From positions 1,025,865 to 1,089,864 of the forward strand of contig CAJNDT010000946.1 in assembly GCA_905221615.1 (NCBI GenBank): 64,000 bases of DNA, written 5' to 3'. This DNA comes from Symbiodinium sp. CCMP2592. Lineage: Eukaryota > Sar > Dinophyceae > Suessiales > Symbiodiniaceae. The notes beneath the pieces are model-generated. The model saw nothing but the letters and a program-made list of their open reading frames with translations, ran no database searches and had not been told where the DNA came from. Below are positions 55,536-64,000 of the stretch, piece by piece. The stretch's first letter is position 1. Every line of letters starts with the position of its first letter. A program made the position numbers and the translations under genes.

Positions 55536-55781
55536 CCTGAACCCTATGTAGAACCCTTAATTATAGTAACTGCTGAAGTGCATGCCACCTTTGCAGCTCA
55601 TGCCGCATGCCAGTTGTACATGTTCATTTTTCCGTCGCTCTTTAGGCTATGCACAGGTTGAGCCTTGAGCACGCTTTTAAACAAAACACATGTACCATAG
55701 TTGTAGGTGCCACGCCCAACGTAGCACTAACTTCGGTCCTTTGCTTGCGTGTAAAAAATAACTCCGCCTACTGTGTGAGCC
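55536..55781. other. Leader or partial 5' LTR of the retroelement
   Basis: Only about 245 bp separate the last MITE from the first ATG of the element. No TG...CA boundary or primer-binding site could be fixed, and the 3' LTR is outside the window, so the LTR cannot be defined. Confidence 0.4.
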
Positions 55782-56891
55782 ATGTCTGGGAGTTCTGGTG
55801 CAGGGGAATTGATCACTCCACTTGTATCTTATTCCCAGCCTGCTGGTTCACACCAGCAGGTTATGAGCCCAACGCTTGGGCAGGGCTATGGCACCACAGC
55901 ACAGCAGCCATCCCCACCTCCCGGGAGGGATGGTATGCCAAATGTACCAGGTTCAACGCCGGCACTTGTACATGGCCAAACAGGTGGAATGGGCTTTGAA
56001 CCTATGGCTACGGGAGGGGCACTTGGAGGCATAGACCAGACTGGGGTTTGCGCAGACTCAGGGGGAATGCCACAAGTGTCGACCGCCACTGAAGGCGGTG
56101 ATGAGGTACAGATGGTTGTGCCGATACCGGGCAATGTTGCGCCGGGCGGGAGCCCAGGGCTAGAGGCCAGCACTGGCATGTTAGGTACCGCGAGTGGTGA
56201 CGCAGAGCCAGGGGGTAGAGTAGTCGCTGGTGCTTCCACGGAGGGGTTTGTGACCCCACGATCGCAACAGGGATTGCCAACCATAGCTGAGATGGTTGAG
56301 GGCTTCCCTAGTACAGGGCTCCAGCTTATGACGCGAGTTGGGGATTTTTTCCGTGTAGCGCGCACTGAGGTGGTGCAGGTACCCGCAGTGGCGCAAGGCA
56401 CACACGCCACACCACCACGAGCAATCACATCACAATCACGTGATAGTCCCAGCGGTGTTCCAAGGCAATTGGCTCTGGGAGAAGGGAGTTTGGGTTCGCA
56501 GAGTAGCTCGCCACCACAGTTGGGAGCGCATGGTACACCCACTTCCTTTGCACCGCCTCCTGGAAGGGATGGCTCCTTGTTGAGCGCGGACATGTTGCAG
56601 CGCATGCAAGCTTTAGAACAGAGGGCCCCCTTACTTTACGGTAGCCTGCCCGAAAAACCCCCATCGAGAACAGACTCATCGTCCCTGCCCCAAGAAGCGA
56701 TTCAAGCTGAGGTTGCAAGGCAGCTAGCGGGGTTTGATCAACGGGCGCAGGCTCAGGACTTGGAAATACAGAGGATGCGGAGGCAACTGGAGGAGGCGGC
56801 CCAAAGGGAACAAGCTCTTAGGGAACAGGTAAGGAGAGAAGTGGCAATGACCAGTAAGTGCCCCAATGGCTCCAACGACACCCCTTGCTGA
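55782..56891 (+). CDS. Retroelement ORF1: gag N-terminal region
   Basis: 369 codons from ATG (CCATGTCTGGG context). The N-terminal 280 residues are Gly/Pro/Ser/Thr-rich and disordered-looking, with two PPPGRDG motifs. The last 60 residues (QAEVARQLAGFDQRAQAQDL, EIQRMRRQLEEAAQREQALR) predict a coiled coil, as in many copia gag proteins. It ends in TGA and overlaps the next open frame (+1) from 56833. A CAG|GTAAGG donor at 56829 and an AG|G acceptor at 56891-56892 would join the two frames correctly by removing 64 nt. Confidence 0.8.
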   Translation: MSGSSGAGELITPLVSYSQPAGSHQQVMSPTLGQGYGTTAQQPSPPPGRDGMPNVPGSTPALVHGQTGGMGFEPMATGGALGGIDQTGVCADSGGMPQVSTATEGGDEVQMVVPIPGNVAPGGSPGLEASTGMLGTASGDAEPGGRVVAGASTEGFVTPRSQQGLPTIAEMVEGFPSTGLQLMTRVGDFFRVARTEVVQVPAVAQGTHATPPRAITSQSRDSPSGVPRQLALGEGSLGSQSSSPPQLGAHGTPTSFAPPPGRDGSLLSADMLQRMQALEQRAPLLYGSLPEKPPSRTDSSSLPQEAIQAEVARQLAGFDQRAQAQDLEIQRMRRQLEEAAQREQALREQVRREVAMTSKCPNGSNDTPC

Positions 56892-59800
56892 GGTTCCCAG
56901 GCCACCCCTTCAGGATGCGCAAGTGCGCACTCCAATAGCGTATCAGGTGCATGATGCTGCAGCGCAGGCGGTTGAGGCTTTGAGAGCGCCTGCTCAAACA
57001 GCAGCTTCAGCAACTTCAGGGTTATGGTCCAACTTTTGGTCGGGGTTGCAAGGTTCCCAAAGGTTACCTAGCAATGCAGCGCCACCCGGAAGGGTTGGGC
57101 AGCCAAGCAGCGCATTATCGGGTGTGCAAGGGGATTCCACCTCTTCTGGCCCAGACCCCCATTCTCGAGCCGAAAACCCGGGTTTGGGCCAGATCAGGGC
57201 TTCGGGCTCTGGTTTCCAGTCAGTTGCTGCCGCTAGTGCCCCAATTCCCCAGGCTTCAGCTGCTCAGGCCAGCACGGCGCCAGTAGGAGCAGCCAGTGTG
57301 TCGCCGGGGGGAACCCAAGGCCCTCCCACATCAGGTAACACCGTACTTGATGCCGTATTGTTGGGAGTGCAGCAACTGCAAACTTTGCAAGCCCAGCACC
57401 TTAGCAGTAGCAGGAAGGAGGATGCCCCGGAAACGGTGAAAACGGGCATTACAACCTTTCCCAAATTAGCCCCACCAGATCCCGCTGGAGGTTCGTTGGA
57501 ATTCCAGGATTGGTTGCAGCTCATTGCGGGCTTGATGAGTGACTTTTCGGATTCCTCTCAACTTTGGTGGTCAGGGGTAGTCCAGGTAAGCAAAGATGCG
57601 TACGATAAGTGGGTCGTCGCTTCCCCCATCGAGCGCTTGACGGTTGAGCCTGATGAGAGGCCTGAGCTTACGGAAGGCAAATGGGGGAGAGTGAATGCCC
57701 GTGCATGCGCGATGCTCTTAGATGCCCTGGACCCCACGGTTAAATCCGATATCATAGCCCGTAAAGCGAATCAAGCTGCATCACAGATCTTGTTTAGGCT
57801 GTATACGACCTACCAGCCCGGGGGAACAGGGGAACGCAACCTGGTGTTGAGCAACTTGCAAAATCCCCATGTGGTGCAGGATGCAGCCTCAGGTGTGTCA
57901 GCATTGAGGGCGTGGGGACGGTGGTATCAAAGGTGCATAGACTTTGGTATGAGTTTGCCGGATCCAATGGTGTTGGTGGGAGGCCTAACCTCAATGACAA
58001 AGCCCGTCATCTCTAAGGAGCCGGAGGTTTCATGGCGAACCGAGATGGTGAAAAGTGCACTGCAGTTGCATGGTCGACCCTCGGAAGAGGCGGTCAAATC
58101 CTACCACAAACATTTGTTGGCCGAGTTTGAGACTTTGGCTGGAGCTCATGTTGCCAAAAAGGGTGGATCAGGTAACCTGGCATTGAAGGCAGCTGGTGTT
58201 GCTGGGGATAAGCCGGGAAAGGGGAGTGGAGGCAAGGGTGGAGGGAATGCCAACACATGCAAGTATTTCCTTTCGCCGAAGGGGTGTAGGTTTGGGTCCA
58301 AGTGCAAAAGCCAACACTCCATGAACGAGTTGTCTAAGGCGGAACGGTTTAAGAAGTGCTTGAATTGTGGTTCCGAGGAGCATCGCGCTAAGGATTGCAA
58401 GGCCGGTAAGGCGGAACCCAAAGCACCGGATCAAAAACCTTCCGTACAGGCAGCCTCATCCCCCACATCCTCGGGCCAACCCGTTGTCCAAGCCACGCCA
58501 GTGCTCAACATGGAAACCTTCATGCAACAGGCAGTCCAGGCTTTGAGGCAGTTGGAGGCCAATCCACCGTGCAGCGGCACCACGCCGCAAGCCCAGCCGC
58601 CTCAACCTCAGCCGGAAGGCTTGAGTACTGCATCGCAGCAGCCCTCAGTGCCACCGGCACCGGCTGCGCCCGCATCGTCTGCACCCAATCCTTCGGTGAA
58701 GAGGCTCACGATTCGCTCAGTCGTGCCCGCAAGCTGTTTCCCGGTTTCGGGTCTCCCAAACCGGGACTTCCAACCCCCCCATCAGGAGGCTCCAACTCGC
58801 GGGTTGGGAAATGCAAAAAATCAGGGTTTGGCAAACCCCCATTCTCGAGCCGAGAATGGGGGGTTGCTTGAGGCCCCCAAACCCATAGCATATGCGCTTT
58901 TGGACTCTGGGGCCACCCATGCCATGAGGCAGGCCATGGATGAGGAGGAGTGGGAGGCCGCATCGGAAGTACAGGTGAGCCTAGCCGGCGATACCACCAC
59001 AACAATGCGGCTCACATCCTCAGGTACTTTGCTCCTGCCTCCCGGGAGGGATGGCCTAGTGCAGCCAATAGTCCCAATGGGCGCAATCATCGAGCAACTT
59101 GGGTATAAACTGGTTTGGTCAGCCGGTAGTTGCAAGCTGTATCCTCCCGATGGTAAGTCGTTGAGGCTTAGGGTCAAAAATGGTTGCCCGGAATTGGTAG
59201 AGAGCCAGGCCCTTCCGCTGATATCACGGTTGGAGGAACACAAAATGCAACAGGTTGAGGAGCTCAGGCGAAGAACGGATGAGGGGAAGGATCGCATCAG
59301 ACAGGCGAAAATCGCGATGCAGCGCACATGGTGGGATCATTTGGTGGAGCATGTTAGCTCGTCAGCGCCAGCAGCGGGCCACATGGCAGTATCCACGGCG
59401 CCATTCTTTCAGGATGTGCCCGATCGTGCATTGTCAGGCCTACTCCCATCGGAAGATGTGGACTCCAAGACTTTGTGGAAAGCTCTTGAAGAAAGTATGC
59501 CAAACCTCAACCGGCGAAGGAGGAAGGCACTTCATCGAGCATCCAATTGGGTTGTTCACTTGTTTGCGGGCCCTGGCTCGCACAAGGCTTTCAAACGATT
59601 GGAGTCGCAGGATACAGTTGTTGTTGAGCTTGACATTTGCCGCTCAAGGAGCCAAGATCTTTACCATGATCCGCTTTGGACGCTTCTTGCTAAGGTTGCA
59701 AAGTTGGGACGAGTTGCGGCGGTCATTGGAGGTCCACCAACCCGCACGTGGTCCATGTCAGGGCACCGCGCCGATGGACCACATCCACTCCGCTCGCCCA

Positions 59801-62800
59801 CTGAACCGTTTGGCCTGAGCACTCTCACCTCTGACGAGCGTGATCTCGTTGATCGTGATACGGGTTTGTATGCTCGCATGTTGTGGTTGCATGCACTTTC
59901 CACCGCCGGGAGGCGTGTGCACCCTAACCCGTCGGATGGAACATCCATGGTGGCATTCATGTTGGAGCAACCGTCGGTTGAACACCACATGGCTTCAAGC
60001 CATTCTGCTGTGGGTAGCGCCCCGTCGTTTTGGAATACCGCGCTGTGGCAAACTTACGCTGAAGAGGCTGGTTTGTTTGAGGTGCATTTCCGTCAAGGTC
60101 CGTTGGGGCACGCGGGCGATAAACCCACAACTGTTGGCACCAACTTGCCCGACCTTAGAGACTTGCAAGCGTTTCAGGGTGAGGTATCGCAGGTTTGTGG
60201 TAGCACCGACAGCCGTGTGTCTCCAGTGTGGGCGCCGGGGTTTGTGCAAGCCATCGTGTACGCACTCCAACGTTGGCCCTGTTACCGCATCATGAAATTC
60301 ACCCAGGCGGATTGGGAACAGCATGTTGCGAACAATCACGTGCCGTACCGCCGTGATTGTGCAGTTTGCGTGCACGGTGCCGGAAACGGCCGCCGCCACC
60401 ACGGTGTAGTTCACCCGGATGTGTATTGCATGTCAGCCGACATTGCGGGGCCCATCCGTGTGAAGGGCAAAGACCCAGAAAGCCGCAACCACCGACCAGC
60501 CACGTTCAAGTACTTCCTCGCTGTGTCGTACCGCTTCCCACGGCTCAAAGGAGTGAAGGAGGAGTCAGACCCCAGCCAAACCGAGGGGTTTGATGATGCA
60601 GCACTCCTCCCGGGAGGGACGGATGACCTTGCAGATGAGGCCTTTCCCGCAGCAGAAGGCCCCCCGCACGAGGATTACGAGGACTCCCTGTACGAGCCAA
60701 GTTTAGCGGAAGAAGAGGAGGAGGCGGAAGGTGAAGGAGTTGAAGGGCCGAGGGAGTTTGCAGCCAAAGTTGCCGAGGAGCATCCCTGGGAGTCAGCCAG
60801 GTGTGAACTCGAAACACCGCCTGACATGGCGAGGCTGGTGTTTGCAGTGCCACTTCACACAAACAAGGGTGATGATATCCTAAATGCCCTCCAACAGGTG
60901 TACATTTCCCTAAGGTCCCTAAACCTCCCCGTGCTTCGTTTCCACACAGACCGCAGTCGTGAGTTCTTCAACAAAAGGACTCGAGCTTGGTTTCACGAGC
61001 GTGGAGTCCGCACAACAACAACAGAAGGAAACGTTCCGCAGCAGAACGGCTCTGCTGAGAACACCGTGCGCTGGCTCAAAGCACGAGCACGAACCCTTCT
61101 CACCTCTGGCGAGGTCGACTCGTCCTTGTGGCCTTGTGCAATCATGACAGCTGCAGCTCAGCAACGGGCGCAGCAGCTGGGCATGAAGTCCAAGCTTGCC
61201 ATCCATTTTGGAGGGAAGTGTTCCGTGAAGCGAAAGTTTTTTAGCAAGAAGGGTGATTTGGAGGATAGATGGGTTGAAGGTAAGTATATGGGGTTGTCAC
61301 CATCTGTGAATGATGGTCACATCGTGTTGCGCAGCGATGGTGTTGGCAACGGCTTTGTGCAAACACTCCATGTTCGCACCCGCCTTGTTTCTCCGGATCC
61401 ACCGCCCTTGCAGTTTGTAGGAGACTCGCTTGAGGAGGAGCACACACCACCTCCACGCAGGGTTCGCGGCAAGCGGTCTGCTGGTGTGAGACTTGACGAC
61501 GTGTTTGCACTTGACCCGCCGCCTCCCTTGCCGCCGCCAGCAGAAGCTCCAAACCCGGAAGGGCCTGTGTCACCGGTTGAGGAGGAGTCTGCCCGTGTAG
61601 CGCGCTTGAGTCTGCAAGACCTCGAAGGTTTAGCTACGGAGCTTATCGAGGACGACTGGGACCTTGATGAAGCGTTGTGGGTGTTAGCCGAAGTGTGCAG
61701 AGCAGCGCCCCAGCTGCAACACAAAGCTGGGTTGTACCGTCACGGAGGTGTCGTAGGAGTTTTAGGGGGTACCACAGATAAGCCTTGGCTGACAGAGCTT
61801 ATGAATATGGTGCTTTCCGCAGTTGCACCCACAGCTGAGTACACCTCGCTTTGGTTGTCTAATTCCACTGTTCAACCCGTGCACGCCGACCACCACAACC
61901 TGCAGGGATCCACAAATGTAGTCCTCCCTTTGAAGCTCCCGCCTAACGGAGGGGATTTGTGGATAGAACTCAAGCCTGGTGACCTAGTCAGTGGCCCTGT
62001 AGAGGAGCGGGTAGACGGCAAAGGTAGGCGCTGGTTAGGGACAACTCACAAGTTAGAGCGCGGTAAGCCCTTTTTCCTAGACCCTACTCGCCGCCACGCC
62101 ACCACTCCCTGGAAGGGTGAGAGAGCAGTCCTTGTTGGCTACACTGTCAACACGTTAGGCAAAGAGCTTGAGCACGAGTTTCAAAGCCTTGAAGCTTTAG
62201 GTTTTCCACTCCCAGCGTCGGTACGTTTACCGCTGACTGAGCAGCAAGACGTGAGACGTCTAGACGCGTTTGACTGCTTCGAAGAAGAGCCCCTTCAGGA
62301 GACAAAGGCACGTCACCCTGACGGGAAGACTTCGGAGTTGGCGATTGGGACTGTGCTTGAAGGCGGAGGTTGGAAAGAAACCCAAGCCGTAGAAGCAGGT
62401 ACTGTAGAGTTGGAGGTGTCGTGGAACCTGAAACACTCGCCGGACCAAAGGCGAACCCAGTCTGAGCACGCCCTGCTGGCTTGCCAACCAGACACCAAGA
62501 CACAGGTTGAGGAGGAGGAGGAGGGCTTAAGCGAGGACTCCTTGCCGGAACAACCAGTGCTGTGGGAGTTGTGGGTTCCACACCCGCAGACAGGTGAGCA
62601 GCTGTGTGTTCTCAGGTCTGACGACTCGGACGCGAGTGAAGCTTGTGCCCTTTGCAAGTCTGAGCCGGTTTACACTACCAACGTAGAGCTGTTGCTTGAC
62701 GGGTTGCAAGAACCACTGCAGGTAGTCCACACTGTAGACCCTCGGGATGCAGAGCAATGCATCGAGAAGTGGATGCCGTCCATTCACAAGGAGATCGGTG

Positions 62801-64000
62801 TCATTGGGAAGGCTGTGCGGCGACTGCCCCCTGCAGAGGTCCGTTCCGGAGGTTGGCTAAAGCGCAAGGAAGTGAAGGTGGTTCCGTCTAAGTTTGTGTT
62901 CACAGTCAAGCCACCAGACCCTGCTGAAGCCTCCCTCGCTACCCGGAAGGGTCAGGCTTACCACAAGCGCAAGGCTCGCCTGGTTGCTTGTGGCAACCAC
63001 GCCCCAGGCACGGGGTCCGAAGTCTACGCTTCAGGTGCTGCTGCAGAGACACTCCGTTGTTTTGTAATCATCAGCTCCAAGAGGAATTGGTGCATCGGGT
63101 CTCTAGATGTCACCTCAGCTTTTCTGTTGACCCCAATCCCGCAAGGCAGAGGTTTTCCAGTGTTTGCTCTCACGCCGCCTAGGTTGCTAGTGAGACTAGG
63201 TTTGGCAGAGGAAGGGGAGCTTTGGATCCTCACGCACGCTGTGTACGGGTTGAGGGAGTCGCCTAAGCTTTGGTCGGACTTCAGGGACTGCCAACTTCGG
63301 GCGCTGAGGTGTGTTGTTGACGGAGTTGAGCTGCAGCTCCAGCAAGGAAGGTTGGACCCAAACTGGTGGCGTGTTGTTCGCACCTCTGACGGGGTAGTCG
63401 TAGGAGGGTTGCTCACTTACGTTGACGACTTTTTGCTTGCAGGCAGTAAAGAGGTGATCGAAGCCTTGGCTACGGCCATCCAGGGCATCTGGAAAACGAC
63501 GCCTCTCGCACTTGCCACCGCAGAGCACCCGCTGAGGTTTTTAGGGGTTGAAATCCTAGTGCAAGGTTCCGGGTTTGTGTTGTCCCAGCAGGCTTACGCC
63601 GAAGAGCTGCTGCGTCTCAACGACGTGAAGCCCACTGCACTAGGTAAGGTCCCCTGTCCGCGTGACCTTGTTTCGTTTGACACTCTCCTGACGGACGAGT
63701 CCCCAACTGAGGAGACCGTTCGAACAGCGCAGAGACTGACTGGAGAAATCCTGTGGCTGAGCCAGCGCACCCGGCCTGACTTAGCTTTCACTGCTTGTGT
63801 GCTTGCCTCTCTCAGCACGAAGGCGCCGCAACGAGCCATCCGCATTGCAGAAAAGGCCCTTGCGTATGTGCAGCGTACCAAGGCGCTATCCCTCACCGCT
63901 GACGCGGATGACACAGGATTGATCGCGTATAGTGATGCCAGCTATGCGCCGGAAGGGAATCGTTCTCACACGGGGTGGGTGGTTTTCCTTCACGGGTCGC
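56833..64000 (+). CDS. Retroelement gag-pol polyprotein (open at right edge)
   Basis: One frame without a stop from 56833 to the window end, 2,389 codons. No convincing ATG marks the start, so it is probably expressed as a fusion with ORF1 by splicing or frameshifting. Copia pol polyproteins are usually 1,300-1,500 residues; the extra length is explained by the methyltransferase-like and oxygenase-like domains and by acidic linkers (for example 61561-61690 and 62500-62530). The gag core is at 57460-58090 (EFQDWLQLIAGLMSDFSDSS). Domain positions are listed separately. Confidence 0.93.
58258..58398 (+). other. Gag zinc motifs: CCCH and CCHC
   Basis: First a C-x8-C-x5-C-x3-H finger (CKYFLSPKGCRFGSKCKSQH, 58258-58317), the type normally found in RNA-binding proteins. 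Then a C-x2-C-x4-H-x4-C retroviral knuckle (CLNCGSEEHRAKDC, 58357-58398). Both bind zinc and presumably the element's RNA. Confidence 0.9.
58882..59220 (+). other. Aspartic protease domain
   Basis: IAYALLDSGATHAM gives the DSGAT active site (Asp at 58903-58905). It cleaves the polyprotein. Preceded by a Pro/Gln-rich linker with micro-palindromes. Confidence 0.88.
59521..60270 (+). other. Cytosine-C5 DNA methyltransferase-like domain, catalytic Cys replaced
   Basis: VVHLFAGPGS (59551-59580) corresponds to motif I, the SAM-binding FxGxG loop. AAVIGGPPTRTWS (about 59716-59754) corresponds to motif IV, normally PPC, here PPT (ACC at 59740-59742). FMLEQPS (59956-59976) fits the ENV/EQP motif VI. 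FRQGPLGHAGDKPTTVGTNL (about 60091-60150) is the C-terminal target-recognition side seen in retroelement DNMTs. The fold is likely intact, but without the nucleophilic cysteine ordinary methyl transfer is not expected from this copy. Confidence 0.75.
60298..61480 (+). other. Integrase: HHCC zinc domain and DD35E core
   Basis: HVANNHVPYRRDCAVC (60325 on) is H-x4-H-x6-C-x2-C. The first core Asp lies in CMSADIAGP (60439-60441), the second in FHTDRSREF (60949-60951), and the Glu in NGSAENTVRW (61057-61059); 35 residues separate the last two. Between the first and second Asp there is an acidic insertion of about 100 residues (60559-60800). The C-terminal part ends VEGKYMGLSPS...HVRTRLVSP, as in copia integrases. 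Confidence 0.92.
61741..62200 (+). other. Putative 2-oxoglutarate/Fe(II) oxygenase domain, TET/JBP-like
   Basis: STVQPVHADHHNLQGSTNVV gives H-x-D-x-x-N (His 61882, Asp 61888, Asn 61897). LPPNGGDLWIEL follows. FFLDPTRRHATTPWKGER then AVLVGYT supplies the distal His (62095) and the 2-oxoglutarate-binding Arg (62122), nine residues later. This is the iron triad plus Arg of the double-stranded beta-helix oxygenases; HxDxxN is the form used by TET/JBP enzymes, which oxidise 5-methylcytosine or thymine in DNA. The assignment rests on motif spacing alone. Confidence 0.55.
62755..63660 (+). other. Reverse transcriptase domain
   Basis: CIEKWMPSIHKEIGVIGKAV opens the domain; RKARLVACGNH, GSLDVTSAFLLTPI (catalytic Asp 63106), LTHAVYGLRESPKLWSDF and LTYVDDFLLAGS (catalytic DD 63424-63429) are the usual copia RT blocks. 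All catalytic residues are present. Confidence 0.97.
63661..64000 (+). other. RT connection and start of RNase H
   Basis: RLTGEILWLSQRTRPDLAF then IAYSDASYAPEGNRSHTGW (first catalytic Asp at 63934). The domain is cut by the window end. Confidence 0.92.

Follow-up and report, generated by a model that had tools for sequence, protein, structure and literature searches.

The window analyzed here is a stretch of 64,000 nucleotides from the coral-symbiont dinoflagellate Symbiodinium sp. CCMP2592 (contig CAJNDT010000946.1, forward strand, positions 1,025,865 to 1,089,864), whose assembly comprises 1.1 Gb in 5,383 contigs. It harbors a Copia long terminal repeat (LTR) retrotransposon whose polyprotein contains two additional enzyme-like domains: a methyltransferase-like domain between the protease and the integrase and, between the integrase and the reverse transcriptase (RT), a domain that sequence comparison identifies as a TET/JBP-like oxygenase. 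The features of the element, in window coordinates, are the following.

55571..55859, + strand: 5' LTR of 289 bp with a TAAC target duplication, 100% identical to the 3' LTR
55779..56891, + strand: Gag-like first open reading frame (ORF) of 370 amino acids, in a frame different from that of the main ORF
56851..64000, + strand: main polyprotein frame within the window, open to 65007 (locus L010)
58258..58398, + strand: Gag zinc fingers, CCCH and CCHC knuckle (Pfam zf-CCHC, E-value 1e-3, and zf-CCCH_4, 4e-3, both below the cut-offs)
58903..58923, + strand: aspartic protease motif DSGATHA, recognized by eye
59503..60420, + strand: methyltransferase-like (Rossmann-type) domain with the downstream pre-integrase zinc region
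60433..61062, + strand: integrase core with SADIAGP, HTDRSREF and PQQNGSAEN (Pfam rve, 8e-4, below the cut-off)
61618..62250, + strand: TET/JBP-like 2-oxoglutarate (2OG)-Fe(II) oxygenase domain, codons 1590-1800
62866..63615, + strand: Copia reverse transcriptase RVT_2, residues 2006-2255, with YVDD at 63418 (Pfam, 8.5e-14)
63928..64000, + strand: start of RNase H with YSDASYA, recognized by eye; the frame continues to the stop at 65007
65221-65509 on the window scale, beyond the window end: 3' LTR of 289 bp, whose TAAC flank matches the 5' flank

The main frame extends from stop to stop (56851-65007) over 2,718 codons without an internal stop, and encodes, in this order, the Gag zinc fingers, protease, methyltransferase-like domain, integrase, oxygenase-like domain, RT and RNase H. 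The RVT_2 match of 52.2 bits, against a Pfam cut-off of 31.6, places the element in the Copia class, and the remaining pol motifs, mostly recognized by eye, stand in the Copia order of protease, integrase, RT and RNase H. With its identical LTR pair and 4-bp duplication, the element is a Copia LTR retrotransposon, and the identity of both LTRs marks it as a recent insertion. The original prediction, made from the letters of the window, had placed methyltransferase motifs, the integrase, an HxDxxN...H...R domain and the RT successively in a single frame, and both this order and the pairing of the two additional domains in one polyprotein were borne out by the shared frame. Its notion of one polyprotein held for the two domains and did not extend to the Gag-like ORF upstream, which lies in another frame. 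Among the matches listed, 10 of 31 near-identical full-domain copies possess one frame of 2,983-3,075 amino acids; the gag of the window copy therefore probably carries a frame break, and the Gag-like ORF probably belongs to the undivided polyprotein frame found in other copies.

A protein search limited to the oxygenase region retrieved 23 proteins of polyprotein length sharing 30-100% identity, nine of which are named, every name being Symbiodinium GIP or RE1, and three database proteins from Symbiodinium sp. CCMP2592 were 100% identical to this region. Aligning the window polyprotein with 17 of the 23 homologs yielded 36 invariant columns, 19 in the oxygenase domain and 17 in the integrase region, the truncated rows precluding such columns elsewhere. 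The invariant oxygenase residues include H1678, D1680, N1683, G1700, G1701, W1704, E1706, H1749 and R1758. Homologous polyproteins of only about 30-40% identity still conserve both additional domains, and their motif blocks are consequently more than chance.

The TET/JBP affiliation emerged through the relatives of the window domain. Four of 19 domain members matched Pfam Tet_JBP (PF12851) with a best E-value of 4.2e-7, a count taken over a set that includes two members of a second element type and that does not specify which members are the four. Because the relatives scored 15.1-29.6 bits on PF12851, below the cut-off of 34.9, we describe the domain as TET/JBP-like and do not file it as a member of that family; whole polyproteins gave no Tet_JBP match at E-values up to 1 (0/18), and the oxygenase domain had no match among PHROGs. 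The profile built from the 19-member alignment retrieved 50 proteins, of which P0040, P0042, P0044 and P0046 are annotated with PF12851; rescanning 10 of these 50 with Tet_JBP gave a match in six (15.1-28.7 bits, all below 34.9) and none in four. In BLASTP, the window domain aligned with three PF12851-annotated homologs at E-values of 8e-17, 1e-16 and 2e-15. Its alignment to the domain of the second element type gave 29-30% identity (8e-12 to 1e-14). When the second-type rows were excluded from the profile to prevent circularity, the Copia-only profile (17 rows) matched the second type with a probability of 99.6%, an E-value of 5e-25 and a score of 169.8, compared with at most 22.5 for 150 column shuffles and 14.1 for the reversed profile. 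By profile, the domain is thus homologous to PF12851-matching proteins and, with its HxD, His and Arg conserved, agrees with the TET/JBP-like oxygenase originally proposed between integrase and RT. A genome-wide Tet_JBP search, which an intron-split host TET gene could escape, detected four places, each of them within a frame of the second retroelement type and scoring below the cut-off (E-values of 2-3e-4); a TET gene of the host itself was considered for these places and rejected, as all four are second-type elements (L041 was read, and the other three are 96-99% identical to it).

The oxygenase domain of the window shows HADHHN (61882-61899), GGDLWIE (61948) and the distal His and Arg (within 62089-62124), and has the Fe(II)/2OG residues H1678, D1680, H1749 and R1758, an HxD...H triad followed by the Arg. 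In the 44 ungapped rows among 81 matched stretches (37 were dropped for gaps, mostly fragments), the Asn and the Arg were present without exception, and HxD and the His in 42 rows each, although these counts, like those of the methyltransferase-like domain below, are not independent, many rows being near-copies. The four motif exceptions (P0025, P0028, P0031 and P0048) are separate ORFs of 235-366 amino acids, and some of the dropped stretches, such as P0063 and P0068, are also substituted at the motifs. The AlphaFold2 model combined a predicted local distance difference test score (pLDDT) of 91.7 with a predicted template modeling score (pTM) of 0.88 and contained ten strands, of which eight lie beyond the first 76 residues; it is a confident beta-rich model with a predicted double-stranded beta-helix.

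2OG oxygenases are diverse, and the first cargo of a polyprotein of this kind is RNA, so that a substrate such as genomic RNA or Gag instead of DNA could be envisaged. We regard an RNA or protein substrate as improbable: Tet_JBP was the sole family below an E-value of 0.05 for the 19 domain members, whose Pfam matches comprised no AlkB-like or prolyl-hydroxylase family, and the oxygenase shares its polyprotein with an integrase and a DNA-methyltransferase-like domain, a pairing repeated in the second type. As to the base, TET2 reads its target via an Asn and a His. The Asn located three residues after the HxD Asp, which we take to be the TET2 base-reading Asn, is invariant in the ungapped rows, and the position matched to the His is mostly Val, Pro or Thr. 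This variable position suggests that the substrate may differ from that of TET2, and with the Asn kept and the His position variable, thymine is as open a substrate as 5-methylcytosine (5mC); a link to 5-hydroxymethyluracil (5-hmU) is plausible. The invariant Asn could also belong to a 5mC-demethylating, anti-silencing enzyme of the sort proposed for the TETs of fungal DNA transposons, with no bearing on 5-hmU, an explanation that we hold at somewhat less than even. CG methylation is described as ubiquitous in relatives of the host (PMC5890265; PMC6723414), and transposon TETs are speculated to offset the hypermutation of methylated cytosine (PMC12730594). The same explanation is disfavored by the missing conservation of the base-reading His and by CpG transitions in only mild excess, 10 at 422 CpG sites vs 23 at 1,629 other C/G sites among the singletons of 27 copies, which is a weak test.

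The METHYLTRANSFERASE-like domain comprises codons 885-1190 (window 59503-60420) and exhibits the methyltransferase-like motifs LFAGPG (59560), GGPPTRTWS (59728), MLEQP (59959, with EQP at 59965) and KPTTVGTN (60121). Its original description as cytosine-methyltransferase-like fits the motif order and the predicted topology, and not the search for PF00145 nor the catalytic residue. At the motif IV nucleophile position, where a C5-methyltransferase has Cys, the window has Thr (GGPPT), a substitution that the original prediction had overlooked. Throughout the 53 readable rows among 82 matched stretches (29 were dropped for gaps), this position holds Cys in 28, Gln, Ser and Thr in 7 each, Arg in 3 and Gly in 1; substitutions to Gln, Arg or Gly in an otherwise conserved domain were observed in clades other than that of the window, in P0014, P0016, P0018, P0020, L046, L047, L048 and L049. 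In the unrooted tree of the domain, the Thr/Ser clade containing the window (support 100/100) is nested in a clade of seven rows (97/97), the remaining three of which carry Cys, and because of this nesting, a loss of Cys is the simplest reading of the sequences.

The AlphaFold2 model of this domain (pLDDT 78.5, pTM 0.79) alternates strands with helices: motif I closes strand 1, the acidic residue lies at the end of strand 2, GGPP and EQP follow the successive next strands, and KPTTVGTN makes up the last strand. Of the two folds named in the original prediction, the models give a beta-rich oxygenase and, at a lower pLDDT, a fitting strand order in the methyltransferase-like domain. None of 14 alignment members matched PF00145 or any other Pfam methyltransferase, the HMMER filters discarding most matches above an E-value of 0.1; NCBIfam and PDB sequence searches returned no relevant match, and no methyltransferase was matched below 0.1 in the family and PDB sequence searches. 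A PHROG labeled 'DNA methyltransferase' was weakly matched by one member of alignment A3 (0.1) and another by the second-type domain (0.2). A profile search collected 51 proteins, none with PF00145, and tblastn found no phage record below an E-value of 1, although 9 of the best 10 of 26 phage records (2 to 8) carry a DNA methyltransferase annotation, which is suggestive only.

Profile comparisons, each with 150 shuffles as a null, related the Copia domain to the methyltransferase-like domain of the second type (59.8; null at most 23.0), and the latter to three phage C5-methyltransferases (42.3; null 25.1), a selected set taken from the best phage matches of that same domain. The Copia profile scored 33.5 against the PF00145 proteins of the genome (8 rows, 5 distinct; null maximum 24.1), with only the motif IV stretch aligned, and 22.5 against the phage methyltransferases directly, which is chance level (null maximum 25.2; 1 of 150 shuffles reached it). 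Descent from C5-methyltransferases is thus likely, given the scores above the null, yet unproved, with the direct phage comparison at chance.

A domain that still works in the window element, with Thr replacing Cys or with another substrate, appears improbable to us. Most rows retain motif I, the Glu of motif VI and the KPTTxGTN block, and the Gln-bearing copies L047 and L049 display constraint, as would be expected of a functional enzyme; the Thr/Ser rows, however, are nested in a Cys clade as loss predicts, and to our knowledge the Cys nucleophile is required by all C5-methyltransferases. The methyltransferase-like domain is constrained, and in the window element it is probably not a standard cytosine methyltransferase. 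The paired kit that would set and alter its own marks, as first imagined, does not follow for this element, because PF00145 is not matched and the catalytic Cys is absent from the window copy and its closest relatives.

Polyproteins bearing both domains, a search for which the original prediction had proposed, were found. Of the 23 homologous polyproteins, 12 match the methyltransferase-like domain contiguously over 250 residues or more, and 21 match it over some length, which was confined to 23-66 residues in P0004, P0013, P0019, P0021 and P0023; P0009 and P0012 had no match. All four divergent loci of the same genome also contain the methyltransferase-like domain. Trees of both domains (17 rows), in which the deep joins are unsure owing to long branches, had three starred clades in common (window, P0003, P0005 and P0006; P0005 and P0006; P0015 and P0017) and no starred conflict, and this agreement fits joint inheritance of the domain pair.

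By sequence, the pairing is also present in retroelements of the second type within this genome (loci L041-L044 and L054-L057; G000:C485:47410-48345 and 139 further matches). A 1,283-residue frame at C485:47410 and elsewhere carries a TET/JBP-like domain (Pfam Tet_JBP, E-value 3.6e-6, below the cut-off) directly upstream of a methyltransferase-like domain with the motifs PPCGTASRAR, LENPANS and KTTRLLTN, in which the PPC motif is intact. Downstream lie a region with a weak RVT_1 match (17.2 bits, under the cut-off of 29.6) and a part that by eye resembles RNase H; no RVT_2 match was obtained. Among at least 140 genome matches to a query comprising the TET domain and the methyltransferase start (from 5,477 candidates, 127 were scored), 34 begin at residue 1 or 2, end at residue 312 and are 83-100% identical; no viral contig was confirmed upon scanning with the second-type alignment A4. 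That two kinds of retroelement share this pair points to a joint role of the two domains.

Signs of constraint were examined in L047 and L049, members of a divergent subfamily of the same genome and the sole pair close enough to test. The proportions of non-synonymous (pN) and synonymous (pS) differences were 0.088 and 0.787 for the oxygenase, 0.113 and 0.845 for the methyltransferase-like domain, and 0.092 and 0.816 for the integrase. Since synonymous sites are saturated in this and the other 9 pairs (synonymous divergence, dS, above 2 or not computable), only strong constraint can be claimed. Both loci carry Gln at the nucleophile position, and the methyltransferase-like domain is therefore still constrained without its nucleophile. 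Across 30 near-identical copies, the oxygenase exhibited 25 synonymous and 15 non-synonymous distinct variants where site counts led to an expected ratio of about 1:3 (p 7e-7), a weak test because the copies were picked by protein similarity, which favors synonymous changes. In the flanks (28 of the 30 copies, two being omitted for low identity), synonymous and non-synonymous variants numbered 40:47 on the integrase side and 116:132 on the RT side, where the decayed copy L026 (97 non-synonymous differences) contributes many of the non-synonymous ones.

Copies of the window element are numerous, with at least 151 matches in its own genome (150 of 4,842 candidates scored), and several near-identical ones, such as L022 and L026, have frame-breaking gaps. 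Such gaps, together with the probable gag frame break of the window copy and the models of P0001 and P0002 that lack part of the methyltransferase-like domain, are what one would expect if both domains were inert hitchhikers in decaying repeats. We consider this highly improbable, for the LTRs are identical, long open frames are many, and the low pN against saturated pS between L047 and L049 contradicts it. Separately, 27 near-identical copies contained 110 singletons over 60118-63750 (33 T>C/A>G, 23 non-CpG C>T/G>A, 10 CpG transitions and 44 transversions); the relatively common T>C might reflect reverse-transcription errors or modified thymine.

Taken together, we favor, with moderate confidence, a young Copia element with acquired oxygenase and methyltransferase-like domains, in which the oxygenase would oxidize bases in the element cDNA or at the insertion site. 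The polyprotein would have acquired the TET/JBP-like oxygenase between integrase and RT, and the methyltransferase-like domain between protease and integrase; the oxygenase, if catalytically active, would enter the particle together with integrase and RT and there turn thymine into 5-hmU, or oxidize 5mC, in the cDNA or at the insertion site. The oxidized new copies might then resemble the heavily modified DNA of the host or evade silencing. The methyltransferase-like domain would serve the same complex and, without the catalytic Cys, would more likely bind or position DNA than methylate it. Several results weigh against this scenario: the window oxygenase domain matches neither Pfam nor PDB sequences and its relatives stay below the PF12851 cut-off, the TET2 base-reading His has no conserved counterpart, the methyltransferase-like domain has Thr as its would-be nucleophile and compares with phage enzymes at chance level, and the gag of the window copy is probably broken. 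A broader version, in which the Copia and second-type elements encode TET/JBP-type thymine hydroxylases that paint the elements' own DNA with 5-hmU and, numbering some hundreds of copies or more, would be a main source of dinoflagellate hydroxymethyluracil, the partner domain being a former cytosine methyltransferase that lost its nucleophile in several clades and turned into the DNA-binding or base-flipping half of a two-domain base-modifying machine, seems to us tentative and on the whole unlikely. In Breviolum, most classes of repeats show an enrichment of 5-hmU, strongest on Maverick elements, and its primary role was considered by the authors to be quite possibly the modulation of repeats (PMC11071213).

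Compared with standard Ty1/copia elements (RVT_2), the window element has the same LTRs, Gag zinc knuckle, protease, integrase, RT and RNase H in the same order, and differs by its two inserted enzyme-like domains and a length of about 9.9 kb. After RNase H, beyond the window end, a polyprotein tail of about 215 amino acids (L010:1360-2007), unusual for Copia, contains by eye a Cys-bearing end and a pair of hydrophobic stretches at L010:1456-1497 and 1564-1626, and a 35-nt direct repeat in gag (83%; window 57152-57186 and 58832-58866) encodes HSRAEN twice. Downstream, an ORF of 461 amino acids (L010:5580-6965) has repeats of the pattern GDGSVVTWG and is presumably RCC1-like. The repeat CCCTAAACCCTA, which we take to be the plant-type telomere repeat, had 148 matches on both strands over window 457-55546 with one mismatch allowed, vs 0.68 expected in 64 kb, and none within the element (55571-64000).

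The kinetoplastid JBP thymine hydroxylases belong to the TET/JBP family and make 5-hmU, a base abundant in dinoflagellates; they are host enzymes instead of retroelement parts and are likened to the present domain by family, not by direct sequence comparison. Mobile elements with DNA-modifying enzymes are a known kind. SymbioDIRS-Dnmt3 and SymbioLINE-Dnmt, retroelements of the same algal group, encode cytosine methyltransferases (DNMTs) under purifying selection (PMC5890265); these are of the PF00145 type, whereas here a Copia element combines a domain beyond the reach of PF00145 with a TET/JBP-like oxygenase. The placement within Pol resembles the position of Dnmt3 in the DIRS element, whose proposed role in the same study is the methylation of cDNA. 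According to that survey, DNMTs occur in the long interspersed nuclear elements (LINEs) and DIRS retroelements of Symbiodinium and Copia is without any DNMT domain (de Mendoza et al. 2018, PMC5890265), which contradicts the DNMT-carrying dinoflagellate Copia elements assumed at the outset; because PF00145 domains were counted, the survey would miss the domain of the window. TET-bearing fungal DNA transposons likewise join a mobile element with a TET/JBP dioxygenase, theirs having an HxD/E-H triad (Biology 2025, 14:1741, PMC12730594). Their carriers are DNA transposons and Helitrons of fungi, and the fungal study found a TET/JBP dioxygenase in no retrotransposon (PMC12730594). In the literature searched (including PMC5890265, PMC12730594, PMC6723414, PMC11071213, PMC11244446 and PMC11453091, with most subscription papers outside reach), neither a TET/JBP domain in any retrotransposon or dinoflagellate Copia nor the domain pairing in a retroelement was reported, in line with the novelty initially claimed; as far as searched, the Copia form with the domain pair is new.

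In dinoflagellates, 12-68% of thymine is replaced by 5-hmU (PMC11071213), which is likely a product of TET-family enzymes (PMC6723414), and the accessible parts of these two papers do not name the responsible enzyme. The oxygenase-like domain offers a concrete, abundant and conserved candidate that can be cloned and assayed, and Copia elements bearing it may help explain the abundance of modified thymine in these algae. With this finding, LTR retrotransposons would join the DNA transposons for which the trait has been documented until now, and the domain pairing common to both retroelement types suggests that retrotransposition in these hosts benefits from base modification.

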